This document shows, piece by piece, positions 1,836 through 63,500 of a stretch of DNA of 64,000 bases. Both the position numbers and the translations under genes were made by a program. The notes below the pieces were generated by a model that was not told the DNA's origin, did no database searches, and saw only the letters and a list, made by a program, of their open reading frames with translations. Source of the stretch: Chloroflexota bacterium (GTDB lineage Bacteria > Chloroflexota > Anaerolineae > CG2-30-64-16); assembly GCA_026389845.1 (NCBI GenBank), contig JAPLHB010000052.1, forward strand, positions 1 through 64,000, read 5' to 3'. How positions within the stretch are numbered: position 1 is the first letter of the stretch; each line of letters opens with the position of its first letter.

Positions 1836-2891
1836 TCAATCCCCGCCAACCGTGCTCACAATCACCCTCACGGCCCCCGCCGCGGCCAGCGCGTCCGCCA
1901 CCCGCGGCGCGGTCTCCTCCGTCACCAGCGCGATCAGATTCCCGCCGCGGCCACCGCCGGAGAGCTTGGCGCCGAGCGCGCCGGCCGAGCGCGTGGCTGC
2001 GGCCAAGGCATCCAGCTCCGGGCACGAAACGCCGATCTGCCGGAGCAAGGCGTGGTTGGCATCCATCAGTTGCCCCAACTGCTCCACCTCGCCGCGACTG
2101 ATGACCGTGGCCGCGTCTTCGACGATGGCCGCCACCGCGTCGAAGAGCCACTCGAACCGGGCGCGATCTTGCTCCCACGCCCGCCGCACGTCCCCCACCG
2201 CGATTCTGGTGGGGCTGGCGATGCCGCTGTCGGCAATCGCCAGCATGAAGGGCCGGCCAATCGGGAAGGGCCGAGGAGGTTGGCCGCGCACGAAGTAGAC
2301 CGGTTGGCCGTAGGCGATGACCGTGTTGTCCACCCCGCTCGGCGTGCCGTGGTGGAGCTTTTCGACTTCGTAAACGAGCGCGGAGACGTCGGCGGGAGTT
2401 ATTGCGCACTGCGTATTGCGTATTGCGTATTGCCGGTTCGCTGGTTCGCCGTTCGCTGATTTGCTGATTTGCCGATTTGCCGATTTGCCGATTTGCCGAT
2501 TTGCCGACACCGCCACCGCACGCACGATGGCCGCGGACACCGCCGCGCCGCTGCCCATGCCGCTGGCGATGGGGATGGTCGAGCGGACGGTGACGCGCCA
2601 GTCGAGGCTCCCCTGCTCCCCTGCTCCCCTGCTCCCCTGCCTCCCCGCGGCCGCCAACGCCAGCCGGACGGCCGCGGCCAGGGGGTCATCGGCCGCGGCG
2701 TCCCGCAGCGCGATCTCCTCGCCCAGGTCGGCCGCGCAAATGACCAGCCCCGAACCGGGCGCGCCGGCCTCCACGATCGCTTCGGCCTGCACCTGCGTCA
2801 CCGGCACGGCCAGCGCGGGCCGGCCGTAGACGACGGCGTGCTCACCGAACAGGATCACCTTGCCGGGCGCGCGGCCGACGCCGAGGATCAT
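1836..2891 (-). CDS. mvk: Mevalonate kinase with repeat-derived insertions
   Basis: This GHMP-family kinase of 351 residues phosphorylates mevalonate with ATP in the cytosolic mevalonate route to isoprenoids. Visible motifs are the N-terminal APGKVILFGEHAVVYG, the ATP-binding loop PIASGMGSGAAVSAA, HGTPSGVDN, and the C-terminal KLSGGGRGGN. The start is the ATG at 2891, where similarity begins; it overlaps the stop of the upstream TIR-STAND gene as ATGA, implying coupled translation. Residues about 128-164 are a surplus block with the SANRQIGK period, encoded by an octamer/heptamer array. Residues about 83-95 (GSRGAGEQGS) come from a run of 10-bp CTCCCCTGCT-like units. Both sit in loops, so the enzyme may still fold. 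A mevalonate pathway is known in several Chloroflexota. An IS lies just downstream. Confidence 0.92.
   Translation of the reverse strand: MILGVGRAPGKVILFGEHAVVYGRPALAVPVTQVQAEAIVEAGAPGSGLVICAADLGEEIALRDAAADDPLAAAVRLALAAAGRQGSRGAGEQGSLDWRVTVRSTIPIASGMGSGAAVSAAIVRAVAVSANRQIGKSANRQISKSANGEPANRQYAIRNTQCAITPADVSALVYEVEKLHHGTPSGVDNTVIAYGQPVYFVRGQPPRPFPIGRPFMLAIADSGIASPTRIAVGDVRRAWEQDRARFEWLFDAVAAIVEDAATVISRGEVEQLGQLMDANHALLRQIGVSCPELDALAAATRSAGALGAKLSGGGRGGNLIALVTEETAPRVADALAAAGAVRVIVSTVGGD
2402..2508. repeat. Heptamer + octamer array inside mvk
   Basis: About 30 bp of GCGTATT heptamers (2402-2433) runs into degenerate octamers and then five exact copies of GATTTGCC (2466-2505). The array is read in frame by mvk and adds about 36 residues. 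The octamer contains no stop codon in any of six frames, and because 8 is not a multiple of 3 every frame on one strand gives the same 8-residue repeat. Confidence 0.95.
2608..2645. repeat. CTCCCCTGCT decamer repeat inside mvk
   Basis: Three to four near-identical 10-bp units of the form CTCCCCTGCT lie in frame within mevalonate kinase and encode a Gly/Ser/Arg/Gln-rich loop. Confidence 0.8.
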
Positions 2892-5800
2892 GCGGCCTCC
2901 AACTTCGCCAGCAGCGTGCTCGCCTCGTCGTACGCCACCTTGTACGTGCCGTCCGGCGGCCCATCGCACTCCGCCAGCCGCCGCGCGGCCTGCGCATGTC
3001 GCAACGCCTCCGCTCGATCTCCCCGCGCCATCTCGATCTCCGCCAGGAACAGGTGTACGTCCGCGCCCTGCAGCACATACCCGCTGCGCTCGGTGATGAC
3101 TAGCGCCTCCCCCGCCAACCGCAACGCCTCGGCACGCAACTCATCTCCCCCGCCCCCCTGCTCCCTTTCTCCCTCTCTCCCCTCGTCCCACCGCACCCGC
3201 GCCAGATCGAGCAGGATGTCCGCCTCGTGATCCACCAGGTTGATCCCCCGGCAGCGGGCCAGCGCCTCGGTCAGATGGCGGTCGGCTTCATCCGGATCGC
3301 CGGCCGCTCGCAGCGCCGCGCCCAGCAGCCAGTGGGCACGGACGTAGTCGCGTTCGGACGGGAATCGGACGCGAGCTGTCTCATCCGCCAGCTCCAGCGC
3401 GCGGCGGGCGGCTCGGACCCCCTCCCCTGCCCCTCCCCCGTTGCGACGGGGGAGGGATCGGGTGGGGGTAAGATCCCGCGCCATCAGCAGCGCGGCCAGG
3501 GCACGGTAGGCCCATGTCACGCCAACACCCTGCACTGCCTTCTTCTTCTCAAACGCCCCCAACGCCGCATCCAGCTCCCGCTTCGATTCCGCCAACGCGC
3601 CCCGATAGGCCAGCAGCTGGCCCAACGCGGCGTGCCCGACCGCCTCCCGGAACTCGTCTCCGATCTCCCGGCACAGGGCGATCTCGCGGCGCAGGTTGGC
3701 CTCGGCCGCGGCCAGCGCACCGAGAGGCATGTAGGCCACGGTGGCTACGGCCCCCAGGCCGATGGCGAGGTTCTCCTTGTCGCCGCGTTTTTCGTCAATG
3801 GCGTTGCCTCCTTCGAATAGCGGCACCGCCCGGGCCGGCTGGCCGCTGAGGCTGTAGGAGTTGGCCAGCGCGGTCAGCGTCCAGGCCTGGTCGCTCTCCT
3901 TCGTCAGCCGCGGCGGTTTGTCCTCACCGTCGGGGAAGAGACCGGCCAGGAGCTCGATGCGCAACTGGTAGGCGCCAAACTGGTAGTAGGTGGCCTGGCT
4001 GATACGGTCTCGGAACAGCGTGATCGCCTCATCATACTGCCCTGCGGCCACCGTGTGGTGGTACAGCTCGATCACGGGCGCCAGGTCGTCCAGCGTCCGC
4101 ACCTGCTCCGGCGGCGGCACCGCGGCGAAGTAGTCGCGCAGGCGGCGGTGGGCCGCGGCGCGGTCATCACCGGCCAGGCGGTCGTATGCGTAGCGCCGTA
4201 CGATGGGGTGAAGGTCGAAGCGGTTGGTCCGGTGGTCGCGGTGGAGGAGGCCGCGGGAGAGGAGGTCGTGTAAATCCGCGTCTAGGTCGTAGGGGCGGGT
4301 CTCCGGCGCATCTGTCCCGGAACGCCCGCGCTCCACGGATGCCTGTTCGTCGGCGAACGATTCGCTGCCACGTGACCCGCCCAATGTCGCATCCGCGGCG
4401 ACACGTCCATCCGCGCGTCCACCGCGACCAAACAGGCGGTTCAGGACGCCGGGGCGCGGGGGGCGGGTTTGGTTGGCCGGTTGTGCGTCGCTTGCCGTTG
4501 ATGTCACGGTCGCCGCGCCGCCGCGTTCGCCGGGCATCACAAACCCGCCCCTACGGTCGGCCAACGCGGCCAGGGCCTCGTACCCCACCGGCCCGCGGAA
4601 GCAGGCGATGCGGCTCAACAGCCGTCGGCGGTCGGGGGGCAGGCTCTCGTAGGCCTGTTCCAGGACGTGGTGCTGGCGCTGCACGAGGTAGGGGCGACCT
4701 TCGCGGTCGCCCCCGGCCACGTCCAGCCGCCGCGCGGCCGCGATGTCGCCGGGCTGGCGCAGGTCGTTGGTGACCAGGCCGGCCAGCAGGCGCAGGCTCA
4801 ACGGGTGGTAGCCGTAGGGCGCGCAGGCGGCCTCGATCTCGGCGCGGCCGCCGCGGATGCCCTGGCCGCGGAAGAACGCCACCGCATCGCCGGGATCCAT
4901 CTGCGTCAGCTCCCGCTCACAGCAGCCCAGCAGCAGCTCCTCCCCATGCCCCTCCACGATCCGCGGCCGCAGCCGGGTCGTCATCAGCACCTTGCCGCGT
5001 AGGCCGGGCAGGGTAGCCAGGGAGCGGAGGAAGTGCTCGGCGACGGGGGAGACGCAGTCGCGTTCGGATTGCGGATTGCGGATTGCGGATTGCGGATTGC
5101 GTATTTGGCTCTTTGCTGATTCGCTGATTCGCTGATTCGCCGATTCGCTGATTTGCCGATTTGCCGATTTGCCGATTTGCCGATTTGCCGATTTGCCGAT
5201 TTGCCGATTTGCCGATTTGCCGATTTGTTGATTCGTCTCATCCCCCTGGTACGCGGCCATCAGGCTGCTGAAGGCGCGGAGGGCGCGCTCGAAGCCGTCG
5301 AGGATGAGGAGGGTGCCGGGCTGGCGCAGGAGGGTGAGCAGCGCGTCGGCCTGCTGCCGCGGGCCGGGGAAGCGACGGAGGTCGGCGCCCAGGTAGGTCA
5401 GCGTCTCACGCAGGAAGCTGTCGAACTGGTTATCCCCTTCGTAGAAGCTCCACCAGACCGCGCGGGGCCAGCGGGCCGCGTCCACGTCGTGACTCAGCCA
5501 GTGCCAGGCCAGCGCGCTCTTGCCGAACCCGCCCAGCGCACGCAGCATCAGCAGCGGGTGGCCGGGATCGCGTTCCAGCCAGCCGCTCAGCATCTCCCGC
5601 TCGGCGGCACGGCCGGTGAAGTTGGGCTGCGCACCGTAGGGGTGCGGCAGGAACCAGCCGGGCCGCTCGGGCGCGGGCGGCGGTTCCTGGATGGGCGCCG
5701 CGCCGAGCGCGGTCAGGAGTTGGGTCCACGGCCAGGCCGGGTCGTCGGGGTCGGCGAAGTTGACGTAGGTGAGCGCCCGCAGGCGCGGCGGGAGATCGCA

Positions 5801-6115: not shown

Positions 6116-6120
6116 GGGCA

Positions 6121-6250
6121 GTTCCCCGTATTGCGTACTGCGTGTTGCGTACTGCGTGTTGCGTACTGCGTGTTGCGTACTGCGTGTTGCGTACTGCGTA
6201 CTGCGTATTGCGTACAGTCACGGGATACGAAATACGTAGTACGCAGTACA
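6121..6250. repeat. Heptamer array forming the TIR-STAND gene leader
   Basis: Alternating TGCGTAC and TGCGTGT heptamers run from about 6125 to 6216 and are followed by inverted-sense units (TACGTAGTACGCAGTAC) to 6250. Together they occupy most of the 5' leader of the minus-strand TIR-STAND gene. A related GCGAATGGCGAGTA / GAAGGAC array lies at about 6311-6353. Confidence 0.9.
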
Positions 6251-6403: not shown

Positions 6404-7858
6404 ATGGTTCACACACTTGTTCGCTCGCGCAGGGGCTGGATCGCCCTCGTTTTGTTGTTCCTGTTGGCTGCGGTCGCTGGTTGCGGCGGCGGGCTCGCGT
6501 CACGGCCGACGGCGACGACCGCGCCCGCGGAACCCACTGCCGTGGCTTCCGCTGCCCAGCCGGCCGCGGCTACCGCCGCCCCGGCGTCGCCGGCTCCGGC
6601 ACCCGATGACCTGCTGGCTCTGCCGGAGGCGTTCCGCTACGAAGCGACGTTGCGGCCGGCCGGTTCCTCGGCCGGCGCGCCGGCGATCATCAGCGGCCAG
6701 TATCGCCGCGGGGCCTGGACGCAGTCGGCGCAAACGGGTGACGGCCCGGCCGAGGAGTCGGTGGCGGTCGAGGGGGCCACCTACACCCGTCCGGCCGGCG
6801 AGCCGACCCTTCGACAGTCCTTCGACCGCGCTCAGGATGTAGCTCAGGGCAGGCTCTGGACGCGCTGGCCCGGCATCGGCTTCGACGCGGCCTACGGGTT
6901 GGCTTCGCCCTTTGCCGTCCTGCGCCTTTATCCGCTGGCCGATGAAAAGGCGCGCGGCGTGCTGGCGCAAGTATTGGGCGCGCCCGTGGCGACCTTCCGC
7001 CAGCAGACAGCCATTTCCGAGGCGACGGTCAAGCGGCTGCTGTCGGCGGGGATCACCGCGTCCGCGCCCGATGCTTCCAGCCGCGCGGCCCTCGAGACAC
7101 AGATCGCGCCGTTGGCCGTCGGGCAGACGATCACCTATTGGGTCGGCGAGGATGGTCGCATCTACCGGGCGGCCGCCACCTTGCTCGCTGCCGATGCCAC
7201 GGGCCAGCCCGCGCCCTGGCTGGAGGTCATCTGGCGCTTCTGGGGCTACGATGACCCCGCCATCGTGATCGTCGCGCCGGCTGACGTGCGTGATGCGCCC
7301 GGCCCGGCCGCGGCCGACCAACCCGCGCCACCGGCCGCGGCGCCACCGGCCGTGACCGCCGAGGCGAACCTGGTCGTGCGCGTCTTCGCATCTCCCGGCG
7401 TGCCGGCCCAGGAATCGGCGGTGACGGTCTATCCCGCGGGCGAAAAGAACCGTCCGCTCGACTGGCGGGTAGCAGCCGAGTCGCGCTTCATCCTGCCGCC
7501 GGGGCGCTACGACGTACTGGCGCAGATGGACTACGCCGAAGAATGGCTGCGCGGAGTCGAAATCACAGCGGGGAGGGCCGTCGAACGCGACGTGACCTTC
7601 GATTTCGGCACGGTGAAGCTGACCGTGACCCAGGGCGGCAAGCCGATCGCCGCGGAGGTTGTCACCTACCCGGCCGGCGATCGGCAAAACTGGGTGGACT
7701 GGCGCTCCGATAACCCGGCCACCCTCCGCCTGCGCGCCGGCGTCTACGACGTGGAGATCGCGTATAACGACTACAAGGCCAAGCAGATCGTGACTGGGCT
7801 GGTGGTGCGGGCCGGGGAGACGGTGGAGAAAGTCGTGGAAGTAGGGAGTGGATATTAG
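6404..7858 (+). CDS. Exported lipoprotein with tandem beta-sandwich repeats
   Basis: This 484-residue protein starts with a charged n-region, a hydrophobic segment and the lipobox AVAGC, so it is predicted to be lipidated and held outside the membrane. An Ala/Pro/Thr stalk follows. The middle (DLLALPEAFRYEATL onward) resembles LppX/LprAFG-like lipoproteins in layout. The last 160 residues hold two similar modules sharing a YPAG(E/D)..(W)VDWR pattern followed by R-x-G-x-YDV, like carboxypeptidase-regulatory sandwiches. The start at 6404 is chosen for its GGAGG site and because upstream in-frame codons lie in the promoter and repeat. An in-frame CTTCGAC.../CTCAGG repeat at about 6808-6862 encodes RQSFDRAQDVAQG. 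Ligand and function are unknown. Confidence 0.75.
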   Translation: MVHTLVRSRRGWIALVLLFLLAAVAGCGGGLASRPTATTAPAEPTAVASAAQPAAATAAPASPAPAPDDLLALPEAFRYEATLRPAGSSAGAPAIISGQYRRGAWTQSAQTGDGPAEESVAVEGATYTRPAGEPTLRQSFDRAQDVAQGRLWTRWPGIGFDAAYGLASPFAVLRLYPLADEKARGVLAQVLGAPVATFRQQTAISEATVKRLLSAGITASAPDASSRAALETQIAPLAVGQTITYWVGEDGRIYRAAATLLAADATGQPAPWLEVIWRFWGYDDPAIVIVAPADVRDAPGPAAADQPAPPAAAPPAVTAEANLVVRVFASPGVPAQESAVTVYPAGEKNRPLDWRVAAESRFILPPGRYDVLAQMDYAEEWLRGVEITAGRAVERDVTFDFGTVKLTVTQGGKPIAAEVVTYPAGDRQNWVDWRSDNPATLRLRAGVYDVEIAYNDYKAKQIVTGLVVRAGETVEKVVEVGSGY

Positions 7859-8090
7859 GTATTGGGTATTATTCTGCCCACGGGCATAAGCTGCGTCTTT
7901 CGAGTAACTGCAAAAACTGCTTTGTCACCCTGAGCGGGTTGATCCCGTGACGTGCGTTGCGGCGAAAATCCAGCGAAGGGTCTCGTTACGAGGTGAGATT
8001 CTTCGCTGGATGCTCGTCGTCGCGAGAAGTTAGAGGCAAACCCGCTCAGAATGACAGTTATTCCCGATAATCTCTAATACCCAATACCTA
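7852..8090. repeat. 132-bp palindromic element (copy 1) nested in a heptamer hairpin
   Basis: An inner element at 7924-8055 has ends GTCACCCTGAGCGGGTT and AACCCGCTCAGAATGAC and an inner CCAGCGAAG / CTTCGCTGG pair. It is flanked by heptamers of the TATTGGGT type on the left (7852-7870) and their inverse on the right (8070-8090). It fills the gap between two convergent genes. Matching copies are at 20223-20354 and 50310-50467. Confidence 0.9.
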
Positions 8091-8723
8091 TTTTTCCAGC
8101 ATTTCCGCGTCCAGCCGCTCGAAAAACGCCCGCATAAACGCCTGTCGCTCCGCGGCGATGGCGCGGGCCGTGGCCGTGTAGAGGCGGTCTGGAATGCGGT
8201 CGAGCTTATAGACGAACTCGTGGACGGGGGTGTAGTCACCGCCGAGGGTCTTCGGCGCGGCGACCGCGTCGCCGGCCTCGGCCGCGATCTCCCGCCAGGG
8301 CCGGCGCCAGAGGGCTGTGCCGCGAGCGCCGGCGTAGGCAAACACGCGCGCGATGCCGATGGCGCCGATCGCGTCCAGCTTATCCGCATCGGAGAGCACC
8401 TGTGCTTCCAGCGTGTGGGGAGCTGGGTCGGCGCGGAAACGGTGCGCTTCGATGGCGTGGGTCACGGCTGCCACGAACGCCGGCGGCTCGTCCCGCAGCA
8501 GCTCTCGCGCCATCGCCGCGCCGGCCAGGTGATGGTGCTCTCGCCCCCCGTTCTCCCCGACGTCGTGCAGCAACGCCGCGGTGCGGATGACCGCCAGGTC
8601 GGCGCCCTCGGCCCGGCCGATGCGCTCGGCCAGCGCGGTGACGCGGAGCACGTGGTCGAAATCGTGCCCGCCGCCGCTCTTTTCGTAGAGGCCGCGGACG
8701 AAAGAGACCTCAAGTGGCTTCAT
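8088..8723 (-). CDS. HD-domain phosphohydrolase (YedJ-like)
   Basis: This 211-residue cytosolic protein carries the HD metal-binding set: His in GHDFDHVLRV near residue 20, HD in LLHDVGE, a further His in the EHHHLAG stretch, and Asp in SDADKLDA. The order and spacing match the YedJ group of HD hydrolases, whose substrates are phosphate esters or nucleotides; the substrate here cannot be read. The ATG at 8723 overlaps the stop of the upstream membrane-protein gene as ATGA, so the two are likely co-translated. The frame is open further upstream, but that part is a shadow of the membrane-protein gene. The last residues run into the flanking heptamer repeat. Confidence 0.85.
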   Translation of the reverse strand: MKPLEVSFVRGLYEKSGGGHDFDHVLRVTALAERIGRAEGADLAVIRTAALLHDVGENGGREHHHLAGAAMARELLRDEPPAFVAAVTHAIEAHRFRADPAPHTLEAQVLSDADKLDAIGAIGIARVFAYAGARGTALWRRPWREIAAEAGDAVAAPKTLGGDYTPVHEFVYKLDRIPDRLYTATARAIAAERQAFMRAFFERLDAEMLEK

Positions 8724-9688
8724 GGCGCCGGTTTCCCTCGTCCCCTCAGCCAAAATACCCCGCCCGGCAGACTCCCCAGGATGATGACTGCCTGCATCAA
8801 CAACGACACCGCCAACGCATGGCCGGTGGACACGCCGGCCAGACCGTAGAAGAACGGATAGGCGGTCTGGTTGACGCCGAGGCCGCCGATGGACACGGGG
8901 ATCATCAGCACCAGGGCGATCAGCGGGTTGAACAGGGTGATCGCGGCGAGAGACATCAGCCCGCCCATCGCCTGCGAGAGAAACCAGTTGACCAGCGTGG
9001 TGCAGGCGATGCCCAGCAGCGCAACGCCGAACGCCCGCGCCAGCGCACCGTAGCGGAAACGGTAGGCGTTGAACGCGTCGGAAACGCGGTCCCAGGCCGG
9101 CGCCAGGACAGACAAAAAACGCAAAGCAAACAGCCGGCCGATCAGCCCGCGCAGCCGGCGGCTGAGCAGCACGCCGAAGCCGGCCGCCAGCACCGTCAAC
9201 GCCGCCACGGCCACCCATTCGACCCCGCGCAACTCGCCGTGTCCGCCGAGGGTCACGGTGACGAAGGCCGCCACGGCCGCAGTGCTCGTGTAGGCGATCA
9301 GCCCGACGACGCGATCCACGATCACCGAGACCGCGGCGTCGGCGGTGCGATCGGTGTAGCGCGCCAGGCCGTAGCCGCGCATCACATCGCCGCCCACCTG
9401 GGGCAGGAAGTTGTTGAAGAAGAAGCCGACGAACTGGAACCGGAGCAACGCGGCGAATGGGATGGTCACGCCCTGCGCGGCCAGGAGCAATTGCCACTTG
9501 ACCGCGTTGACCCCGATCGCGACCAGGTACGTCGCCAGCCCAGCCCCGAAAAGCCACAGGTTCGCCGTCCGGAGCTGCGCGCCGACCTGCGTCAGATCCA
9601 CGCGGCTGAACGCCCAGGCGATGAGGGCAAGGCTGATGAGGAGCTTGAGGAGGGTGGTGAGTTTGTCGCGCACAGGATGGATTCTCAT
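8720..9688 (-). CDS. LPG-synthase-like membrane protein (UPF0104 family)
   Basis: This 322-residue integral membrane protein has about eight hydrophobic segments and the family motif FFFNNFLPQVGGDVMRGY near residues 88-105. The family corresponds to the flippase-like membrane part of lysylphosphatidylglycerol synthase and occurs alone in many bacteria near glycosyltransferase genes; a role in lipid-linked substrate handling is inferred. The C-terminal half contains NPLIALVLMIPVSIGGLGVNQ, also typical. No ribosome site precedes the ATG at 9688 because a heptamer array abuts it; a downstream GTG at VRDKLTT is an alternative. It forms an operon with the HD hydrolase and has a glycosyltransferase gene upstream. 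Confidence 0.88.
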   Translation of the reverse strand: MRIHPVRDKLTTLLKLLISLALIAWAFSRVDLTQVGAQLRTANLWLFGAGLATYLVAIGVNAVKWQLLLAAQGVTIPFAALLRFQFVGFFFNNFLPQVGGDVMRGYGLARYTDRTADAAVSVIVDRVVGLIAYTSTAAVAAFVTVTLGGHGELRGVEWVAVAALTVLAAGFGVLLSRRLRGLIGRLFALRFLSVLAPAWDRVSDAFNAYRFRYGALARAFGVALLGIACTTLVNWFLSQAMGGLMSLAAITLFNPLIALVLMIPVSIGGLGVNQTAYPFFYGLAGVSTGHALAVSLLMQAVIILGSLPGGVFWLRGRGKPAP

Positions 9689-9838
9689 ACGTGCTGCGTG
9701 ATACGTGCTGCGTGCTGCGTGCTGCGTGCTGCGTGCTGCGTGCTGCGTGATACGTGATACGTGCTGCGTGCTACGTGATACGTGCTACGTGGAAGTCCAC
9801 AACTACCTGGCACCGATCACGTAGCACTCGTCACGTAT
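9689..9838. repeat. ACGTGCTGCGT heptamer array with inverted right arm
   Basis: About 100 bp of GCTGCGT and ATACGTG units is followed by a short inverted arm (CACGTAGCACTCGTCACGTATCACG, split by a non-repeat loop). It fills the whole gap between the glycosyltransferase and the LPG-synthase-like gene, so any co-transcript carries a long hairpin here. Confidence 0.9.
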
Positions 9839-10803
9839 CACGGCTTCTGCGCCAACGCCGTCGGCCGCAGATCATCCTTCGCCGTCGTCTGCTGCCGCTC
9901 CGCGCCCACGTCCGTCTTCTGCGACCAGGCCATGTCCCAGACGACGTGGCGGTCTTTCTTGATGGCGAAATCGTACCAGCCGAGCAGCCGCGACCAGGCT
10001 TCGAGCACCGCCAGCAGAACGAGCGTCCAGATCAGTTGCAGCGCGCCCCAAAGCTCCTTGAGCGCGACCTTTACTACCCGCTGGTTTTGGATGCTGGAGA
10101 CCGCGTAGCCGTACTTGGCCTTCAGATAGAGGTGACCGGCGTGGTTGCGCCGGCGTTGGGTCACGAAGTCGCGGATCGTCGTCGGCCCAGTGTTGTAGAC
10201 CACCGCGTCGGGCGCATAACGGACCGACAGCCCGCGCTGGATGACGAGCGCCTCCACGAACGCCTCGTCCATGGCCACGTCGAGCGGGATGCGGTCGAAC
10301 ACCTTGCGGAAAGCGATCATCTCGCCCAGCCGCGGAATCTCCAGGCACAGTTGGTGTTCCAGTCGCAGCCGCAGGTGGGTGAAGAGGCCGACGATGTGAT
10401 CGGGCGTGTTCACGGGGATCTTGTGCGCGCCGGTCATGCCCACCGTGGGATCGGCGAACATGCGGACGAGATGTTCCACCGCGTCCTCGTCGGGCAGCGT
10501 GTCGCCGCTTTCCAACACGCAGATTTCTTCCTGGGCGTTCGCCAGAAAGACGTTGACGGCTGCGGTCTTGCCCTCGCGTCTGGGCTGGACCAACAGCTTG
10601 ACAGTCGGGTTCTCAGCGGCGTAGGTTTGAACGATGGGCACGGTGTTGTCGGTGCAGCCGCTGGCGACGACGACGATCTCGCCGATCTCCACCGCGCGCA
10701 GATGTTGGTTCAACAGCGCATCCAGCAGCCGGCCGATGTTGGCTTCCTCGTTGTAGGCCGTCACGCCCACGCTGCAACGAATCTTCGGTCGTTGGTGATC
10801 CAA
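9838..10803 (-). CDS. Family 2 glycosyltransferase, membrane-associated
   Basis: The 321-residue protein has a GT-A fold: SVGVTAYNEEANIGRLL at the start, a VVASGCTDNT nucleotide-sugar segment, ESGDTLPDED in the acidic metal-site position, and a late RRRNHAGH stretch resembling the acceptor-side Q/RxxRW motif. One hydrophobic segment (LIWTLVLLAVLEAWSRLLGW) near residue 250 would anchor it to the membrane. Sugar and acceptor are unknown; the adjacent flippase-like gene suggests envelope glycan or glycolipid work. The start is a TTG at 10803 preceded by GAGAGG; a TATAAT-like -10 lies on the same strand at 10834-10839. Confidence 0.85.
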   Translation of the reverse strand: MDHQRPKIRCSVGVTAYNEEANIGRLLDALLNQHLRAVEIGEIVVVASGCTDNTVPIVQTYAAENPTVKLLVQPRREGKTAAVNVFLANAQEEICVLESGDTLPDEDAVEHLVRMFADPTVGMTGAHKIPVNTPDHIVGLFTHLRLRLEHQLCLEIPRLGEMIAFRKVFDRIPLDVAMDEAFVEALVIQRGLSVRYAPDAVVYNTGPTTIRDFVTQRRRNHAGHLYLKAKYGYAVSSIQNQRVVKVALKELWGALQLIWTLVLLAVLEAWSRLLGWYDFAIKKDRHVVWDMAWSQKTDVGAERQQTTAKDDLRPTALAQKP

Positions 10804-12182: not shown

Positions 12183-12275
12183 CGGTATTAGGTATTGGAT
12201 ATTGGATATTGGCAAGTGGGGTCTTTTCCATCTGCCAATACCCAATATCTAATACCCAATATCCAATATCCCTTA
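12183..12275. repeat. ATTGGAT heptamer hairpin between dnaN and recF
   Basis: A left arm of ATTAGGT/ATTGGAT units (12184-12211) is followed by a 25-nt loop and a right arm of ACCCAAT/ATCCAAT units (12236-12272). The arms pair with few mismatches. The array extends to within 5 bp of the recF start codon and replaces any normal ribosome site. Confidence 0.93.
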
Positions 12276-18148: not shown

Positions 18149-18226
18149 TGATTGGAGATTGGGTATTGGGTATTAGGTATTGGAGATCGGCCTCCCAATC
18201 TCCAATACCTAATACCCAATACCTGG
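18149..18226. repeat. ATTGGGT heptamer hairpin between sigma and anti-sigma genes
   Basis: 18162-18187 and 18198-18223 are exact reverse complements over 26 bp, with a 10-nt loop. The arms are made of ATTGGGT, ATTAGGT and ATTGGAG units. It lies immediately downstream of the sigma-factor stop and 13 bp before the anti-sigma start. Confidence 0.96.
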
Positions 18227-22973: not shown

Positions 22974-25900
22974 TCACCACCCCACCCACGGCAGCCACAG
23001 CCGCGGCGCCGCGGCGGTCGGACGCACCGTCACGCTCGTCAGGCCGAGCGCCTGAATGCCTCCGGCCAGGTCCACCGCTTCCAATCGGTACCAGTAGGTT
23101 CGGCCTCCTTGCACATCGCGATCGCTAAACGCGTAGGTGTGCCCGTTTGCGGAGCCGGGGGCCGCGCTGGGGATCAGCCCCGCGTCCAGCCGCTGCCACG
23201 GCCCCGCGGCGCTTTCCGCCCGGTACAGGTGGAAGCCCTGCACGTCCAGCTCGCTGACCGTCTCCCACGTCACCACCACTTGGTGGCCGGCGACCGTGGC
23301 CTGGAAGTTCGCCAGCCGCACCGCCAGCGGCCCCTTGCTGCTATCCCCCACCGCCCAGTCCGAGAGGGTCGTCAATTCGGTGCGCGTGACCGTGTTGGCC
23401 GTGGCCGAGGTACGGCCGCACATCCAATTCGTGCCGCCGGTGTTGCGGCAGACGTAGGCGTTGGTGCCAGGGGTGGAGACGTTGTGCGGCAACGTCAGGT
23501 CAATGGTATAGCTGCTGCCGGTGGGTGTAATGCTCCAGTAGCGACCGGTCTGGGTGGCAGCGACGGCATTGGGATGGTTGCTGTCCACCCGATCCACCTG
23601 GAGCTGGCTCAGGCTGCCCTGCGTCGTCACGTTGACGCTCAGGTCGGCGCCATTGTAGCGCCCGGCCAGGCCGAAGGTCTTGCTCCCAGCGCCGGAGACG
23701 CTCTGTGTCTTGCGGATCGTGCCGCTGTTGGTCAGCGTGCCGGCCACGGTGACGTTATCCGCCGAGACGGTTTCCACCAACGTCACGCCGCTGTTGACGG
23801 TCAGGTTGTTGAAGGTGGTAGCAACGCTGGCGTCCAGGTTTTGCGCGCCGCTGCCGCTGAAGATCACCGTGCCAGAGTTGTGATTGAGCGTCCCGCCGCT
23901 GTTCGTGAGATTGCCCGTGAGCGAGAAGGTGTTCGCGCTCGGCGCGTTGAACGTTCCTGCGGAGAGGGTCAGGTTGCCGCTGAGCGTCGTCGCGCCGAGC
24001 AAGGTCAGGTTGACGCCCGAATCGAGTGAGACACTTTCGTTGTAGGTGCCAGCATGCACGTCCACACTCCCATTGACCATCACCGCATTGAGCGCGCCGC
24101 CGATGGTGGTATAGCAGGGGAGATTGCTGCCGCATGCTCCTCACTTTAGCCACGAACGCGTCTCGAATGCCGCCGTTGTGGGTGAGGTCGGGTCCGATGG
24201 TCACGGGGAAGGTCGCCTCGGTCGAGGCGGTGAAGCCCGTGACGTAGGCGTTGCCTGCTGAGTCCACCGCAATGCCCCTGCCATAGTCGTCGCCGCTGCC
24301 GCCGATGTAGCCCGCATAAACCAACGCGCTACCGCTGGCGTTCACCTTCGCCACGAATGCGTCCCCGATGCCGTTGTAGGTGACGTCGGGTCCCACCGCC
24401 ACAGGGAAGGTCGCTTCGGTCGACCAGGTGTTGCCCGTGACGTAGGCGTTGCCCGCCGTGTCCACTGCTATCCCATAGCTATTGTCGTAGTCGCTGCCGC
24501 CGATGTAGCCCGCATAAACCAACGCGCTACCGCTGGCATTCACCTTCGCCACGAATGCGTCCCAGCCGCCGTTGTGGGTGAGGTCGGGTCCCACCGTCTC
24601 AGGGAAGGTCGCTTCGGTCGAGGAGGTGTAGCCTGTGACGTAGGCGTTGCCCGCCGCGTCCACCGCAATGCCGATGCCATAGTCGGTGTCGCTGCCGCCG
24701 ATGTAGCCCGCATAAACCAACTCGGTACCACTGGCATTCACCTTCGCCGCGAATGCGTCCCCGCCGCCGTTGTAGATGAGGTCGGGTCCCATCGTCTCAG
24801 GGAAGGTCGCTTCGGTCGAGTAGGTGTCGCCCATGACGTAGGCGTTGCCCGCCGTGTCCACCGCGATGCCGTAGCCATTCTCGCCGCCGCTGCCGCCGAT
24901 GTAGCCCGCATACACCAACGCCGTGCCACTGGCATCCACCTTCGCCACGAATGCATCACTGCTGCCGTTGTGGGTGAGGTCGGGTCCGATGGTCACGGGG
25001 AAGGTCGCCTCGGTCGAGTAGGTGTTGCCCGTGACGTAGGCGTTGCCTGCTGAGTCCACCGCAATGCCGTAGCCCGATTCATAGTTGTTGCCGCCGATGT
25101 AGCCCGCATACACCAACGCCGTGCCACTGGCATTCACCTTCGCCACGAACGCGCACCTTCGCCACGAACGCGTCCCACGGGCCGCCGTTGTAGGTGAGGT
25201 CGGGTCCGACGGTCACTGGGAAGGTCGCCTGGGTCGAGTTGGTATCGCCCGTGACGTAGGCGTTGCCCGCCGAGTCCACCGCAATGCCGAAGCCACGGTC
25301 GTCAGCGCTGCCGCCGATGTAGCCCGCATAAACCAACGCGCTACCGCTGGCGTTCACCTTCGCCACGAATGCGTCTTCGCCGTCGTTGTGGGTGACGTCG
25401 GGTCCCACCGTCTCAGGGAAGGTCGCCTCGGTCGAGGCGGTGTCGCCCGTGACGTAGGCGTTGCCCGCCGCGTCCACCGCAATGCCGTAGCCATAGTCGT
25501 CGCCGCCGCCGCCGATGTAGCCACAGTAGACCAGCACGGTCGGGTCAATCACCAGCGGCAGTGCGGGGTTGTATGCGCCCACGTGGAATCCGTAGGGGCG
25601 CGGCTCGTCTGTGCCCACCTCGTCCGCGCCCCACCGCGCGGCATCCTCCAGCGCATAAGCCACTGCCACTGGCACACGCTGCCCCGCCACCTCTTGATAC
25701 GCCACAGGCGCGTCGTCCTGGAAGCCGCCCGCAGGCGTACTCACTTCCAACTGCCCCGCGTCGTTCACCCGCACCGTCGCGCCGCGATAGGCAAGGCGAA
25801 TGGCGGCGGGGTCAGCGCCGGGCTTGACCACGAATTCGTACTTCAAGCGATTGACCGTCCCGCTGTACACCAGGTCAATCCCCTCCCACAAATCGGGGTA

Positions 25901-31398: not shown

Positions 31399-31432
31399 GT
31401 TCTGCAATCCGCAATCTGCAATCCGCAATTTC
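31399..31432. repeat. TGCAATCC heptamer array between DUF58 and subtilase genes
   Basis: Four CTGCAAT/CCGCAAT units fill the short gap between the two minus-strand genes. No inverted arm is present. Confidence 0.8.
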
Positions 31433-32740: not shown

Positions 32741-32838
32741 TCGTTGCTGGAAGCTGGAAGCTAGAAGCTGGTAGAACCCGATCTCTGCGGCCTCGCACCC
32801 TACTTCCAGTCACCAGTTTCCAGCATCCAGCTTCCAAT
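32741..32838. repeat. CTGGAAG heptamer hairpin between moxR and DUF58 genes
   Basis: A left arm of GCTGGAA/GCTAGAA units (about 32743-32772) and a right arm of CTTCCAG/TTTCCAG/CTTCCAA units (about 32800-32836) pair imperfectly across a loop. The array fills the whole gap between two co-directional genes. Confidence 0.9.
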
Positions 32839-37408: not shown

Positions 37409-37681
37409 ATGTCTCTTCCTGAATTCATCGTCGAGCCGGTGCTTGTCCAGGTCCGCTTCCTGCCCGATGGCACGGTGCAGCCGACCGCCTTCATCTGGCG
37501 CGAGCGCACCCGCTACATCGCCGACACGGGCCGCCGGTGGCAAGAGGAAGCCGACGGCGTCATCTGGCGCTGCTACCTGGTTCGCACGCCAGCGTCGGAG
37601 ACGTTCGAGTTGCGCTATGCGCCGGCCGAGGGACGATGGGTGCTGTGGCGGACGTGGGGTGACGTGACACGTGATGCGTGA
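37409..37681 (+). CDS. Small conserved protein (DUF6504-like)
   Basis: The 90-residue protein has a strand-rich layout with FIWRERTRYIADTGRRW, WRCYLVRTPASETFELRYAPAEGRWVLWR (split by position: residues 53-80). The R/W-rich pattern resembles DUF6504 proteins, often found next to DNA-repair genes; here PcrA is convergent. No function is known. Upstream is a run of GTAGACAAG/GGAGACAAG units ending at the ATG, and the last codons (GDVTRDA) are encoded by a GACACGTGATGCGTGA repeat. Confidence 0.6.
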   Translation: MSLPEFIVEPVLVQVRFLPDGTVQPTAFIWRERTRYIADTGRRWQEEADGVIWRCYLVRTPASETFELRYAPAEGRWVLWRTWGDVTRDA

Positions 37682-37742
37682 TACGTGAGAGCGGGAAAGC
37701 ATCTCTCGCAGATCACGTAGCACGCATTCCGCATCACGATAC
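37665..37742. repeat. ATGCGTGATACGTG hairpin between convergent genes
   Basis: The left arm ACGTGATGCGTGATACGTGAGAG and the right arm CTCGCAGATCACGTAGCACGCATTCCGCATCACG (each split by mismatches) pair around GCGGGAAAGCAT. Both flanking genes end inside the arms. Confidence 0.85.
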
Positions 37743-40094
37743 TTTTCGCAGCCGCGCAAAACTCACCAACAACGTCTTCGTCCCTTTCCCCGGAAACGCC
37801 ACGGTTACTTCCTCATCGTCGGCGGTCAGTTCTGCTTTGAGCACGATGCCCGTGCCGAAGAGGCCGTGGTCAACCCGGTCGCCGGGCTTGAATTGGGTGG
37901 AACGTGTTACGGCGTCCGTGTTGCGTGTTGCGTGTTCCGTGCCGCGCGATGAGTCAGGGCTGGCACGATCGGGAGACCGGCCTGAGCCGACCGAAGAAGC
38001 GGGGCTGGCACGATCAGGAGACCGGCCCGGCGCGACCGGTCGGCTGCCCCATTCAACGTTTGTCGTCGTTCGTCGTTCGTCGTTCGTCGTTCGTCGTTCG
38101 TCCGTCATCCCCTTCGCCGCGGCCGGCACGTCGCGCAAAAACCGCGACGGCTCATTGACCGCGCTGCGGCCGTAAAGGGTCCGGCGGAAGGCGCGGATCA
38201 AGAAGAGCCGGTCTTTCGCCCGCGTCACGCCGACGTACATCAGCCGGCGCTCTTCTTCCATGCCGTCGGGGTCTTCGAGACTGCGGCTATGCGGGAAGAT
38301 GTTTTCCTCCAGGCCGGTGATGAAGACCGTCGGAAACTCCAGCCCCTTGGCCGAGTGCAACGTCAGCAGCGTCACGCGGTCCTTTTCCTCGATCAACTCG
38401 TCCTGATCCGAGACCAGCGCGATCTCTTCCAGGAACGCGGTCAGGCGCAGCTCCGGCGGGAAGTCGTCATAATGCGTCGCCACGCTGCGCAATTCCTGGA
38501 GGTTGTTCCAGCGGTCCTCGCCTTCCTCGGTGCCATCGCGCAGCCAGGCCGCGTAGCTCGACTCTTCGGTCACTTTGTCCAGCAAGGCCGCCACGGTCAG
38601 ATTGGCCTTCGCAGCGATCCAACCAGCCAGCATTTTGTAGAAAGCGACTAGCGACTTTTGTGCGCCGCTGCCGAACGGGTGCTCGGGCGGCTTGGGAAAG
38701 CGCGCGGCCACATCGGCCGCCAGGAGTTGGCTCTTGAGGTCGCCCGCGACCAACGCCAGGGCGGCGGCCATCGGCACGCCCAACTCCGTGCTCCAGGTCG
38801 CCAGCGCGCTCACCGACTTCTCGCCGATGTTGCGCGGGGGCACGTTGATGATCCGGCCCAGCCCGACGTTGTCGGCCGGGTTGTGCGTCACCCGCAGATA
38901 GGCCAGCGCGTCCTTGATCTCCTTACGCTGGTAGAACCGCGTCCCGCCGACCAGCCGATAGGGCATCCCGTGCGCCACAAACGCGTCTTCGATGGGGCGA
39001 GATTGGGCGTTGGTGCGATACATCACCGCACAATCGGCCAACTTCGCCTCGCCCCGGCTCACCAGGCGTTGGATCGTGCTCGCCACGAACGCGGCTTCGT
39101 CCGCCTCGTCGTAGGCTTCGTGCGTGGTGATGTTGAGCCCGCGCCCGCGGTCGGTGCGTAACGTCTTCGGTGTGCGGTGTGCGTTCCGGGCGATGATCGC
39201 GTTGGCTGTGTCGAGGATCGTCTGGGTGGAGCGGTAGTTCTGCTCCAACAGGATGACCCTGGCCTCCGGAAAACTTTCACGGAAGCGCATAACGTTGCGG
39301 TAGTCGGCGCCTCTCCAGCCATAAACAGACTGGTCTTCGTCGCCTACGGCAAAGATATTGTGATGCTTTTCGGCCAACATCCGCACCAGGTCGTACTGCG
39401 CCGTGTTGGTATCCTGAAACTCGTCCACCAGGACGTACCGGTAGCGTTCCTGATAATGGCTCAGCACCGCGGGGACCTCGTGGAAGAGATAGACCGTGCG
39501 GCAGAGCAGATCGTCGAAGTCCAGCGCGCCGTTGGCTGCCATGATCTCTTCGTAGCGGGTGTAGACGCGGCGTGCAACCTCAGCCCAATAGGTGTCGGCC
39601 TGGAAGTCGGCCGGCTTGACCAGCTCGTTCTTGGCCTTGGAAATGGCCGCGCGCATCGCCTCGGGCCGGTAGAGCTTCTCATCCAGCTTGAGGTCGCGCA
39701 GCGCCTGGCGGATGGCGGTCAACTGCTCCCCGTCATCGTAAATCACGTAGTTCGGGTTCAGGCCGATTGCTGCAGCTTCCTGGCGGAGGATGCGCGCACA
39801 AATGCTGTGAAACGTGCCGATGGTCAGCCCGCGCCAGCCAGTGCTGGTGGGCACGGCCTCGCCGAGCAGCCGGTTGATGCGCTCGCGCATCTCCTGGCTG
39901 GCCTTGTTGGTGAAAGTAACGGCCATCACCGAGCGCGGGGACGCCTCGGCCGCCCGCAACAGGTAGGCCACCCGATGGGCCAGCACCCGCGTCTTGCCTG
40001 AGCCGGGGCCGGCGAGCACCAACACCGGGCCGTTGACCGTCGTCACTGCTTGAGTTTGGGCCGGGTTCAAGCCGGCCAGGAGGTCTTCATGCAT
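37734..40094 (-). CDS. pcrA: PcrA/UvrD-type superfamily 1 DNA helicase
   Basis: The 786-residue helicase unwinds DNA 3'-5' in repair and clears stalled forks. Motifs in order: Q-motif LNPAQTQAVTT, I GPGSGKTRVLAHR, II DEFQDTN, III VGDEDQSVYGWRGAD, IV LEQNYRSTQ, V LTLHSAKGLEFPTVF, VI EERRLMYVGVTRAKDRL. The C-terminus (FKPGDRVDHGLFGTGIVLK) is the Tudor-like RNA-polymerase-binding domain of PcrA. Between motif VI and this domain, residues about 663-729 are a surplus Arg/Ser/Thr-rich linker made entirely of DNA repeats (37910-38106). The linker is variable in the family, so activity is probably kept. Confidence 0.94.
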   Translation of the reverse strand: MHEDLLAGLNPAQTQAVTTVNGPVLVLAGPGSGKTRVLAHRVAYLLRAAEASPRSVMAVTFTNKASQEMRERINRLLGEAVPTSTGWRGLTIGTFHSICARILRQEAAAIGLNPNYVIYDDGEQLTAIRQALRDLKLDEKLYRPEAMRAAISKAKNELVKPADFQADTYWAEVARRVYTRYEEIMAANGALDFDDLLCRTVYLFHEVPAVLSHYQERYRYVLVDEFQDTNTAQYDLVRMLAEKHHNIFAVGDEDQSVYGWRGADYRNVMRFRESFPEARVILLEQNYRSTQTILDTANAIIARNAHRTPKTLRTDRGRGLNITTHEAYDEADEAAFVASTIQRLVSRGEAKLADCAVMYRTNAQSRPIEDAFVAHGMPYRLVGGTRFYQRKEIKDALAYLRVTHNPADNVGLGRIINVPPRNIGEKSVSALATWSTELGVPMAAALALVAGDLKSQLLAADVAARFPKPPEHPFGSGAQKSLVAFYKMLAGWIAAKANLTVAALLDKVTEESSYAAWLRDGTEEGEDRWNNLQELRSVATHYDDFPPELRLTAFLEEIALVSDQDELIEEKDRVTLLTLHSAKGLEFPTVFITGLEENIFPHSRSLEDPDGMEEERRLMYVGVTRAKDRLFLIRAFRRTLYGRSAVNEPSRFLRDVPAAAKGMTDERRTTNDERRTTTNVEWGSRPVAPGRSPDRASPASSVGSGRSPDRASPDSSRGTEHATRNTDAVTRSTQFKPGDRVDHGLFGTGIVLKAELTADDEEVTVAFPGKGTKTLLVSFARLRKVS
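37910..38106. repeat. Three repeat types inserted in the PcrA linker
   Basis: GTGTTGC heptamers (about 37916-37940), two 26-bp direct repeats differing at one base (37957-37982 and 38002-38027, GGGCTGGCACGATC core) and CGTTCGT heptamers (about 38062-38101) follow one another and keep the pcrA frame open. Confidence 0.92.
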
Positions 40095-42551: not shown

Positions 42552-42611
42552 GGTAGTTGGAAGTTGGAGGTTAGAAGTTGGAGCGAGTCTCCAATCTCTA
42601 ACTTCCAGCAA
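42552..42611. repeat. AGTTGGA heptamer hairpin
   Basis: A left arm of AGTTGGA/GGTTAGA units and a right arm TCTCCAATCTCTAACTTCC pair around GCGAG. It lies between the convergent glycosidase-like gene and maf and includes the maf stop codon. Confidence 0.9.
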
Positions 42612-45579: not shown

Positions 45580-45700
45580 GGAGAAAAACGAAAAACGTAA
45601 AACGAAAGGATGTCGCGCGGCGCCCTTTCGTTTTACGTTTTGCCTTTGCGTCTTGCGTTTTTCGCCTTGCGTTTTTCGCCTTGCGTTTTGCGCTTTCCGC
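45580..45700. repeat. AAAACG-type repeat hairpin upstream of the DksA-like gene
   Basis: GAAAAACGTAAAACGAAAGG on the left pairs with CCCTTTCGTTTTACGTTTTGC on the right (paired arms split by GATGTCGCGCGGCG), and the right arm continues as TTGCGTTTTTCGCC units to about 45695. It fills the gap between the divergent ruvB and DksA-like genes. Confidence 0.88.
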
Positions 45701-55035: not shown

Positions 55036-55487
55036 TCGTGTTCAAACGCGGCGAACTCTGGTTCCTGGTCCAACTCCTCCTCTTCGCGCTCATTTTTTTC
55101 CTTCCGCGCGTCGAGCTGTTTCCGTTCCCGTTCTGGCTACGCATCCTGGGTCTGGCGATCATCGCCGTGGGTGGCGTGTTTGGCACGGGCGGCGTGCTGG
55201 CGTTGGGGCGCAACTTCAGTCCCTACCCGAAGCCCATCGAGGGCGGGGCGCTGGTCACGACGGGCGTGTACGGCATCGTCCGCCACCCCATCTACACCGG
55301 ATTGATCCTGGGCACGCTCGGTTGGGGCATTTTTCGCGAGAATCTGCTGGGCGCGGCCCTGGCGGTGGTGCTGTTCGTCTTTTTCGATCTGAAGTCGCGG
55401 CGCGAGGAGCGATGGCTGGTGGAGGCGTATGCGGGGTATGCGGACTATCGGCGGCGGGTGAAGAAGTTGGCGCCATGGGTATATTGA
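55032..55487 (+). CDS. Isoprenylcysteine methyltransferase-like membrane protein
   Basis: The 151-residue protein has three or four hydrophobic helices and the ICMT/PEMT core: FSPYPKPIEGGALVTTGVYGIVRHPIYTGLILGTLGW, with the RHPIY-x-G motif at about residues 91-97, and a late EERWLVEAYAGYADYRRRV. These enzymes methylate lipids or small molecules with S-adenosylmethionine; the bacterial substrates are mostly unknown. The start is GTG 55032, overlapping the pgl stop by four bases (GTGA). Upstream in-frame codons are inside pgl. Confidence 0.88.
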   Translation: MIVFKRGELWFLVQLLLFALIFFLPRVELFPFPFWLRILGLAIIAVGGVFGTGGVLALGRNFSPYPKPIEGGALVTTGVYGIVRHPIYTGLILGTLGWGIFRENLLGAALAVVLFVFFDLKSRREERWLVEAYAGYADYRRRVKKLAPWVY

Positions 55488-55550
55488 CAGGAGACAGGAG
55501 ACAGGAGTCAGATCTGATCCCTGATCCCTGCCTCCTGATCCCTGAACTCA
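55488..55550. repeat. GACAGGA / CTGATCC repeat between convergent genes
   Basis: Three GACAGGA units (about 55489-55509) are followed by CTGATCC/CTGCCTC units (about 55512-55545). The right arm only partly complements the left. Confidence 0.8.
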
Positions 55551-59354: not shown

Positions 59355-59355
59355 G

Positions 59356-59431
59356 GTGTGTTCCGTGTTGCATGCTGCGTGGAGCGTGGAGCGACATGGG
59401 AATAACACGCACCACGCAATACGCACTACGC
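59356..59431. repeat. GTGTTGC / CACGCAATACGC hairpin-like repeat
   Basis: CCGTGTTGCATGCTGCGTGGAGCGTGG on the left and CACGCACCACGCAATACGCACTACG on the right (described by position 59358-59392 and 59407-59431) lie between two minus-strand genes. The stop of the second UroD-like gene lies in the right arm. Confidence 0.8.
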
Positions 59432-60867: not shown

Positions 60868-60879
60868 GGGCGAACGACC

Positions 60880-60986
60880 AACGACGAACGACGAACGACC
60901 GCGGCTCGAAACCGAAAACTGCAATCGCCGATATCAAGCCGCCACCGATCTCCAACTACCAACTTTCAACCTCTAACTTTCACCCT
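60880..60986. repeat. Repeat-filled gap between ybeY and dgkA
   Basis: GAACGACCAACGACGAACGACGAACGACC-type units (about 60871-60901) and CCAACTACCAACTTTCAACCTCTAACTTTC-type heptamers (about 60948-60985) occupy the gap. They belong to the same families as 38062-38101 and 42552-42611. Confidence 0.8.
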
Positions 60987-61442
60987 CTAGCTTTCACCCT
61001 GCAACACTGCATCCTGCTTCGCCCACATGGCCGCCTCCTCCGCTGGCTCGGCGTGGTCATAGCCAAAGAGGTGCAGCGTGCCGTGGACGGCGAGCAGGCG
61101 CAGCTCATCCTGCAGCGATCGGCCTAACTCGGCGGCCTGGCGGCGCGTGAACGGCAGGGCGATGATGACGTCGCCCAGGTAGGCCGCGGCCTCGGGCGCG
61201 CTGACGAAGCCGGGGGTCGGCTCCTGCGCGGCGAACGAGAGCACATCGGTGGAACCTTCGACCCCGCGGTATTGCGCGTTGAGGCCGGCCACTTCCTCGT
61301 CGTCGGTGATGACCACCGTGACTTCGGCGTCGGGTTGGCCCTCAGCCTGCAACACCGCGGCCACGACGGCCGCGAGGTCGGCGGCGTCTACATCGGATTC
61401 GTAGGTCTCGTCTATCTGGATGGCGATGTTGTCGTAGGGCAT
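60987..61442 (-). CDS. ybeY: Endoribonuclease YbeY (rRNA maturation)
   Basis: YbeY is a zinc-dependent RNase needed for 16S rRNA 3'-end processing and ribosome quality control. The 151-residue protein has the metal motif HGTLHLFGYDH (H-x3-H-x5-H) near residue 118 and TDVLSFAAQEP and LGDVIIALPF upstream, all typical. The start at ATG 61442 follows GAGGGGG. It lies 26 bp downstream of the cytochrome-like gene and upstream of dgkA. Confidence 0.94.
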   Translation of the reverse strand: MPYDNIAIQIDETYESDVDAADLAAVVAAVLQAEGQPDAEVTVVITDDEEVAGLNAQYRGVEGSTDVLSFAAQEPTPGFVSAPEAAAYLGDVIIALPFTRRQAAELGRSLQDELRLLAVHGTLHLFGYDHAEPAEEAAMWAKQDAVLQGES

Positions 61443-61468
61443 GAGAACCCCCTCGCGCTCCGATACCG

Positions 61469-62038: not shown

Positions 62039-62308
62039 GGGTTTCTTCCTGTTTTTTTCTTCGGATTAGTGCACGACTTCTGCACTTTCGGTGAATGCAT
62101 GTTTGTCCGCTGACGTAACAGCGGGGCAGAATCTGCCAGAATCAGCCTGTAAAAGCATATACTGGACGGGCAATGCTGTCTGTGATCTATGGCCCAATGG
62201 CACACACAACATACCCCGCGCAACCTGCCGCCCCGCCTTGCGTATAAGAGTCGTGACCGGCGCGCAAACCGGTCTGGCATCTTGCAGAATCACACAAGGG
62301 AGGAGATC

Positions 62309-62941: not shown

Positions 62942-62965
62942 GTTTCAGGAGGGAGGGAGGGGGAA

Positions 62966-63430
62966 ATGAGCAGTAAACTGTATCGCAGTCGTGGCAACAA
63001 GATGATTGCCGGCGTGTGCGGGGGTATAGGCCAATACCTGCGTATTGATCCGGTGATCGTGCGCCTGTTCTTCCTGCTGTTGGGATTGAGCAGCGGCATC
63101 GGCGTGCCGCTCTACCTGGTGCTGTGGATCATCATTCCCTACGAGGGCGAAGGTGCGACCGGCAGCGCCGAGACGGCCCATACCGGCGGCCAGGAGATCG
63201 CCGACCGGGCACGCGCGATGGGCGAGGAGCTGCGCGAATCGTTGAGCAAGCCGAACCCGCAGGCCGGCATCATCGTCGGCGCGGCGCTGGTCTTCTTCGG
63301 CCTGATCGCGCTGTTGCGGAATCTGGACATCCCGTGGCTGTTCTGGCTGCGCTTCGACGTGCTGTGGCCCTTCTTGCTGATCCTCGGCGGCGTGGTGCTG
63401 ATCTGGCGGCGCGTGGGCGGCAAGGACTGA
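62966..63430 (+). CDS. PspC-domain membrane protein
   Basis: The 154-residue protein has a PspC domain at residues 3-60 (LYRSRGNKMIAGVCGGIGQYLRIDPVIVRL, then LYLVLWIIIP), a charged middle, and a C-terminal pair of helices (IIVGAALVFFGLIALLRNLDIP and FDVLWPFLLILGGVVLIWRR). PspC proteins respond to envelope stress and may bind regulators. It lies 24 bp after the previous gene and is followed by a repeat and the next membrane protein. Confidence 0.9.
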   Translation: MSSKLYRSRGNKMIAGVCGGIGQYLRIDPVIVRLFFLLLGLSSGIGVPLYLVLWIIIPYEGEGATGSAETAHTGGQEIADRARAMGEELRESLSKPNPQAGIIVGAALVFFGLIALLRNLDIPWLFWLRFDVLWPFLLILGGVVLIWRRVGGKD

Positions 63431-63434
63431 CAGA

Positions 63435-63500
63435 TGACGAATGATGAATGACGAAAGACGAATGACGAAATCAGTCGTCGTCGGTCCTTCGTCGTTCGTC
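63435..63500. repeat. GAATGACGAA / TTCGTCGTTCGTC hairpin
   Basis: Left units ATGACGAATG/AAGACGAATG and a right arm GTCGTCGGTCCTTCGTCGTTCGTC (described in two halves) pair imperfectly. It lies between the PspC gene and the LiaF-like gene. Confidence 0.85.

Follow-up and report, generated by a model that had tools for sequence, protein, structure and literature searches.

Polar tandem arrays in a Chloroflexota contig

The stretch of DNA analysed here, the window, comprises positions 1 to 64,000 of contig JAPLHB010000052.1 from a Chloroflexota bacterium (assembly GCA_026389845.1, below G000; 6.84 Mb, 228 contigs, GC 65%). The closest named relatives of its RecF protein are Chloroflexota metagenome-assembled genomes (MAGs), for example HGW-Chloroflexi-1. 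Gaps between its genes, which we called from codon usage, hold degenerate tandem arrays of 7-bp and 8-bp units, detected with Tandem Repeats Finder (TRF) and by direct reading of the sequence (Table 1). These arrays are polar: read outward from the adjoining gene, the G-rich strand (in a few families the purine-rich strand) runs 5' to 3', independently of gene direction and of G-runs. This strict polarity was overlooked in an earlier description of the window (the original prediction), which concentrated on hairpins formed by inverted arms and listed ten gaps that contain them. The hairpins were recovered near 9.7, 12.2, 18.15, 32.75, 37.7, 42.55, 45.6, 55.5 and 63.45 kb but not near 60.9 kb, and inverted tandem 7-8 mers were additionally found at 6.2 and 59.4 kb. 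RNA folding of twelve window gaps, each compared with shuffled sequence, gave a better fold than the shuffled controls in ten (z -3.7 to -8.5). The only match to a known RNA family of Rfam in the window was one tRNA, and none was obtained for the hairpins.

Polarity was scored on arrays taken without requiring complementarity, each being assigned to the strand richer in G than in C, and consecutive arrays at most 100 bp apart were counted as facing pairs. In G000, the order was G-rich then C-rich in 77 facing pairs and the opposite in one. The corresponding ratios were 34:1 and 6:0 in two relatives, G005 and G009, giving 117 against 2 over the three genomes. Lone arrays followed the same rule, with the G-rich strand pointing outward from the nearer gene in 121 cases and inward in 34 (P 1e-12). 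The rule held equally at both kinds of gene end, 3' and 5', and in co-directional, convergent and divergent gaps. Counting all arrays, outward exceeded inward by 239:59 in G000, 122:30 in G005 and 17:3 in G009. By gene end, the counts were 111:24 at 5' ends and 128:35 at 3' ends. Arrays without any GG kept the polarity as well (88:24 and 25:7). Furthermore, a check free of base counts was made on 400 Chloroflexota genomes, where the arrangement GACGAANGACGAA-N0-30-TTCGTCNTTCGTC (GACGAA..TTCGTC) gave 73 overlapping matches in six genomes, including that of the window, and the reversed order TTCGTC..GACGAA gave none. The polarity of this one unit family thus holds across the phylum.

Since each array is polar, two facing arrays lie G-rich/C-rich, and a pair whose members share a family consequently resembles a hairpin. 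A general base skew at gene edges was considered as the source of the polarity and rejected because the skew is too small: array-free gap edges have almost none. Ordinary non-tandem inverted repeats in gaps showed a weak bias only (64:46). Part of the contig sample had been picked for CGTGCTG arrays, which makes densities inexact; we see no way in which this choice could create polarity.

The hairpin itself might have come first. Fold-back copying at a replication fork would insert a mirror image whose arms then drift apart by slippage, so that the facing geometry would be inherited. Near-perfect stems such as that at 18150-18223, an excess of facing arms of the same family, and a whole hairpin cleanly present or absent at one site (C193:12288, below) would all fit such an origin. 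However, copying of the C-rich strand should yield the opposite order equally often, which is not what the counts of 2 against 117 and 0 against 73 show; mixed-period pairs could not have begun as mirror images, and lone arrays obey the polarity rule too. We regard an origin by fold-back as unlikely.

Recurrent unit families and their position relative to genes

We next looked beyond the window. A scan for tandem 7-8 mers followed by their inverse gave 140 tandem-unit hairpins in 1.50 Mb of the genome, 119 with 7-bp and 21 with 8-bp periods. Arrays were counted by period in 1.14 Mb, with Markov sequence as control: there were 237 arrays of period 7 against one in the control and 53 of period 8 against none, and periods other than 7, 8 and their multiples were much scarcer. 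Inverted repeats numbered 373 against 34 in the control. The unit had been described as specific to each locus, which proved overstated: about a dozen families recur (CGTRNTR, GATTNCG, GACGAAN, TATTRGR, GCTGGAA, CAGGAGT, AGGGACT, TGACANGG, ACGAAGRC and others), and three consecutive copies of CGTGCTG alone gave 93 overlapping matches genome-wide, 44 forward and 49 reverse.

In co-directional gaps, the hairpin starts a median 4 bp past the upstream stop codon. Divergent, that is promoter, gaps are avoided by the arrays: among gaps of at least 60 bp, hairpins occupied 92 of 566 co-directional and 12 of 75 convergent gaps but only 3 of 106 divergent ones (P 7e-5). Both observations, together with the strong predicted RNA hairpins, would suit a selected transcription boundary, in which RNA that is G-rich on leaving a gene in either direction favours pausing, R-loops or a hairpin, and the arrays terminate or insulate transcription in both directions or make 3' ends more stable. 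Related roles (transcript stability, translational coupling or termination) are suggested for cyanobacterial hairpins of this kind in the available part of PMC2670836. Such a function would account for the polarity at 3' ends but would need a second reason at 5' ends, where the polarity (111:24) equals that at 3' ends (128:35). Terminators matter most in convergent gaps, yet these are no richer in hairpins than co-directional ones; many facing pairs are unable to pair, and neither a wobble preference nor a U-tract was found. The comparable repeats of Xanthomonas are, as far as the available part of PMC4692102 goes, mostly transcribed. A selected boundary is therefore somewhat improbable, though it is the alternative that we take most seriously. 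Intrinsic terminators were rejected: T averaged 2.16 per 10 nt after the hairpin and 2.2 before it, and there was no asymmetry with respect to the transcript strand.

The two arms evolve separately

According to the original prediction, both arms at a locus share one unit, which suggested copying between the arms or selection for their pairing. Sharing stood only at the level of the family and only for part of the facing pairs. In G000, 11 of 77 facing pairs combine a period-7 with a period-8 array and nine further pairs have unrelated units (20/77 in total); in G005, 11 of 34 are of mixed period and eight have unrelated units (19/34). As to mutual copying, a first arm-swap test was positive (z up to 7.5), but it was biased because the hairpins had been selected for pairing, and the unbiased test, made on array pairs, gave no signal: arms of the same unit family matched their actual partner no better than a swapped one (z -1.2 and 0.1). 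Mismatches in the stems, read on the transcribed strand, comprised 79 G.U and 76 A.C, so that there was no preference for wobble pairs, and neither this tolerance nor the compensatory change expected of a structured RNA was seen.

Sister species were compared in G005 and G009, which belong to one genus and are about 88% identical in aligned DNA. Independent change of the arms in relatives had been named as what would refute the original prediction, and it was seen: a single arm changed at two loci. At C97:11970 both species have a hairpin, with GATTGCA against GATTGCG/GATTGCC in the left arm and an identical right arm; at C356:12880 the species differ in the left arm (AAGTTGGT against AACTTGGG), and the right arm is conserved. 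Pairing is thus not maintained and the two sides evolve separately, which, together with the swap and wobble results, contradicts both copying between the arms and selection for pairing.

Arrays also come, go and are replaced between the sister species. At C193:8946 the family switched in the left array only, and at C151:10965 one gap holds different array families in the two genomes. C193:12288, C97:13646 and C73:301 carry arrays in G005 and none in G009, a difference that may be gain or loss. In the dnaN-recF gap, compared over a greater distance, the window has a pair of 7-mer TATTRGR arrays and G001 one of GTAATGA, also a 7-mer; the pairs of G005 and G006 are 8-mers, and G003 has no pair. 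As a separate observation, the start of the C193:12288 insert resembles, in our own reading of this one case, the Shine-Dalgarno region next to it, as if copied from there and since diverged.

Presence and absence at orthologous sites, along with a dispersed, intergenic and hairpin-like character, would also be expected of a mobile palindrome spread by a transposase, akin to repetitive extragenic palindromes (REP) or miniature inverted-repeat transposable elements (MITE), with a chirality inherited from founder copies. The known elements of these classes, including bacterial interspersed mosaic elements (BIME), have a conserved palindrome core and target duplication; here, units and loops are variable, there is no conserved core or loop, and the composition of the loops is like that of the gaps. 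No signal of target-site duplication was detected (4.84 against 4.71, sd 0.09). A common polarity of many unrelated families with two periods also speaks against a mobile element, which we consider very unlikely.

A possible origin from extended break ends

Taken together, polarity on both flanks and independence of the arms lead us to favour, tentatively, an origin in which 3' ends were extended from both sides of a break, the hairpins being mostly a by-product. Extension of break ends is the simplest process that would place outward G-rich strands on both flanks, also where arrays are one-sided or the pairs mismatched. The genome carries several hundred of these short arrays, mostly of 7-mers and less often of 8-mers. 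A chromosomal break would leave two DNA 3' ends, one per side, each of which would be lengthened with G-rich repeats by self-slippage or by copying of another array. The extended ends would then be joined and the arrays later altered by slippage. They would persist where the insertion is harmless, above all directly behind stop codons. The hairpin would be a secondary feature, as would any influence on transcripts. In eukaryotic head-to-head telomere fusions, the G-rich strand runs outward from both flanks and the two arrays meet mid-way. The joined ends envisaged here would have this geometry, and the likeness would be one of geometry only, the present arrays being bacterial and having no fixed RNA-templated unit.

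Several points weigh against this origin. The extension step itself was not observed, and the decay of units along the arrays showed no gradient that would betray a growing end. Recurrence of the families genome-wide means that copying between loci or a common source is needed. Facing arms belong to one family in 40 of 60 cases against 15.5 expected, hence the two sides were not wholly independent at birth. In addition, the outward rule has about 20% exceptions, and the polarity could be selected via transcription rather than made by breaks. The wider proposal that bacteria of several phyla heal breaks by self-templated, telomere-like extension of both 3' ends with G-rich 7-8 nt repeats, and that polar heptamer arrays are the scars, is doubtful.

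Relation to known heptamer repeats

Heptamer repeats of cyanobacteria have been reported since 1990 and interpreted either as hairpins or as G-quadruplexes, without agreement on how they arose or what they do. The short tandemly repeated repetitive (STRR) sequences of filamentous cyanobacteria are 7-bp repeats for which hairpins are reported (Mazel 1990, cited in the available part of PMC2670836). The arrays described here share with them degenerate 7-bp units in many tandem copies, mostly between genes. The likeness to cyanobacterial repeats noted in the original prediction is accordingly supported; the qualification that hairpins set the present repeats apart is not, because the cyanobacterial repeats are themselves reported to form them. 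What differs is the host, which is no filamentous cyanobacterium, as the Chloroflexota relatives of RecF indicate, its high GC and the frequent 8-mers; the available part of PMC2670836 states no polarity rule. A cyanobacterial control, plasmid A of Trichormus variabilis, had two arrays in 50 kb, too few to be informative.

Closer in placement are GGGAATC in Xanthomonas and GGGGAYT in Nostoc PCC 7120, described with a focus on G-quadruplexes and with their function left open (PMC4692102, as are the following points, from its available part). These are intergenic heptamers, few between divergent genes, with the sense strand just past stops and the antisense strand just ahead of starts; our arrays are placed in the same way. 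In Xanthomonas, 70-75 convergent pairs per genome form inverted repeats. There, however, one G-quadruplex-forming unit type was studied per genome, whereas about a dozen families of 7 and 8 bp occur here, many units without GG keep the polarity, mixed families face each other and the arms change independently between species. GGG, which would allow a quadruplex, is present in only 50 of 298 gap arrays. Another heptamer-based structure is the P6b stem in the trnL intron of Nostoc, which uses either of two motifs, TDNGATT or NNTGAGT, and changes by 7 nt at a time on one or both sides (PMC4476775). That stem is part of a functional intron, and its pairing is probably important, in contrast to the arms here, whose pairing is not maintained.

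The kind of repeat is thus already known, and what is new is a polarity that spans many families and does not depend on G-quadruplexes, together with the independence of the arms. A literature search found no report of such repeats in Chloroflexota, which does not prove their absence. The hairpin and G-quadruplex readings come apart here: pairing is not kept, G-runs are not needed and strict polarity remains. This shifts the question from the role of a hairpin to what makes the repeats point out of genes.

Arrays of the window and other repeats

Most arrays of the window lie between genes, as had been described, but some do not (for example 2403-2507 and 5065-5227). The in-gene 7-mer and 8-mer arrays at 2403-2640, 5065-5227 and 37917-38102 occupy interdomain stretches of the GHMP kinase, the TIR-TPR protein and UvrD. 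The hairpin at 9690-9842 is flanked by two minus-strand genes, of which the left one (8720-9673) matches LPG_synthase_TM.

Table 1. Tandem arrays and hairpins along the window (a point marks features with no strand given; fold z, RNA folding against shuffled sequence)
Position	Strand	Feature	Details	Fold z
2403-2507	+	Two arrays in coding region of GHMP-kinase gene	CGTATTG, period 7, 2403-2433; GATTTGCC, period 8, 2455-2507	
5065-5227	+	Two arrays inside TIR-TPR gene	CGGATTG, period 7, 5065-5105; TTTGCCGA, period 8, 5115-5227	
6127-6249	.	Hairpin in divergent gap	CGTACTG/CGTGTTG array 6127-6214; facing arm 6225-6249	-5.7
7850-8089	.	Facing pair	TATTAGG/TATTGGG 7850-7873 and its complement 8070-8089; dispersed palindromic repeat 7960-8019 in between	
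9690-9842	.	Array facing C-rich arm	CGTGCTG/CGTGATA 9690-9791; arm ends 9842	-6.2
12184-12271	.	TATTRGR hairpin	Gap between dnaN (stop 12180) and recF (start 12278); arms 12184-12212 and 12235-12271	-7.7
18150-18223	.	GATTGGG/TATTGGG hairpin	3 bp past stop of ECF-type sigma factor, ahead of zf-HC2/PD40-repeat gene	-8.5
31404-31429	-	Lone GCAATCC array	C-rich on + strand; right-hand gene 5 bp away; outward polarity	
32746-32836	.	GCTGGAA hairpin	Gap between MoxR-type AAA ATPase gene and DUF58 gene	-6.7
37662-37738	.	CGTGATA hairpin	Convergent gap adjoining uvrD 3' end	-5.9
37917-38102	.	Two arrays inside uvrD	CGTGTTG 37917-37941; TCGTCGT 38063-38102; facing, different families; between helicase C and tudor domains	
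42555-42609	.	AGTTGGA hairpin	Convergent gap, 5 bp past stop codon	-5.8
45583-45693	.	AAAACGA hairpin, then TTGCGTC array	Divergent gap upstream of ruvB	-4.0
55486-55545	.	GACAGGA / CTGATCC facing arrays	Convergent gap	-3.7
59358-59431	.	CGTGGAG / CACGCAC facing arrays	Weak fold	-1.5
60873-61000	.	Facing arrays of different families, no hairpin	GACGAAC 60873-60900; TTTCAACCTCTAAC (AGTTGGA/GTTAGAG-like) 60951-61000	-0.7
63434-63500	.	GACGAAT hairpin	3 bp past stop of PspC-domain gene	-5.1

Other repeats were noticed alongside the arrays. The palindrome at 7960-8019, CGGCGAGAATCCAGCGAAG ... CTTCGCTGGATTCTCGCCG, is not tandem and lies between two heptamer arrays that face each other (7.85 and 8.08 kb); it recurs on other contigs of the genome at C1:11207, C1:14897, C1:86346, C18:23627, C18:39681, C3:12644 and C17:51460. 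Another dispersed palindrome, ACGTGCCAGGCACTT ... AAGTGCCTGGCACGT, has a loop of 3-4 bp and was found at C1:3495, C1:34264, C1:95262 and C17:53937. In G005, a palindromic element with the ends GTATCTTCTC / GAGAAGATAC occurs at C356 12971-13227 and C151 7341-7466 and is missing from the aligned G009 sites; one copy is inserted within a tandem array. Octamer hairpins of the form ACCACCAAGACACGAAGG ... CTTCGTGTCTTCGTGGT lie at C12:1108-1833, C15:5504, C153:3745 and C8:3769 of the window's own genome, and similar sequences may occur in unrelated environmental genomes. Finally, positions 24141-25522 of the window consist of tandem repeats about 198 bp long, which overlap a called gene starting at 25079.

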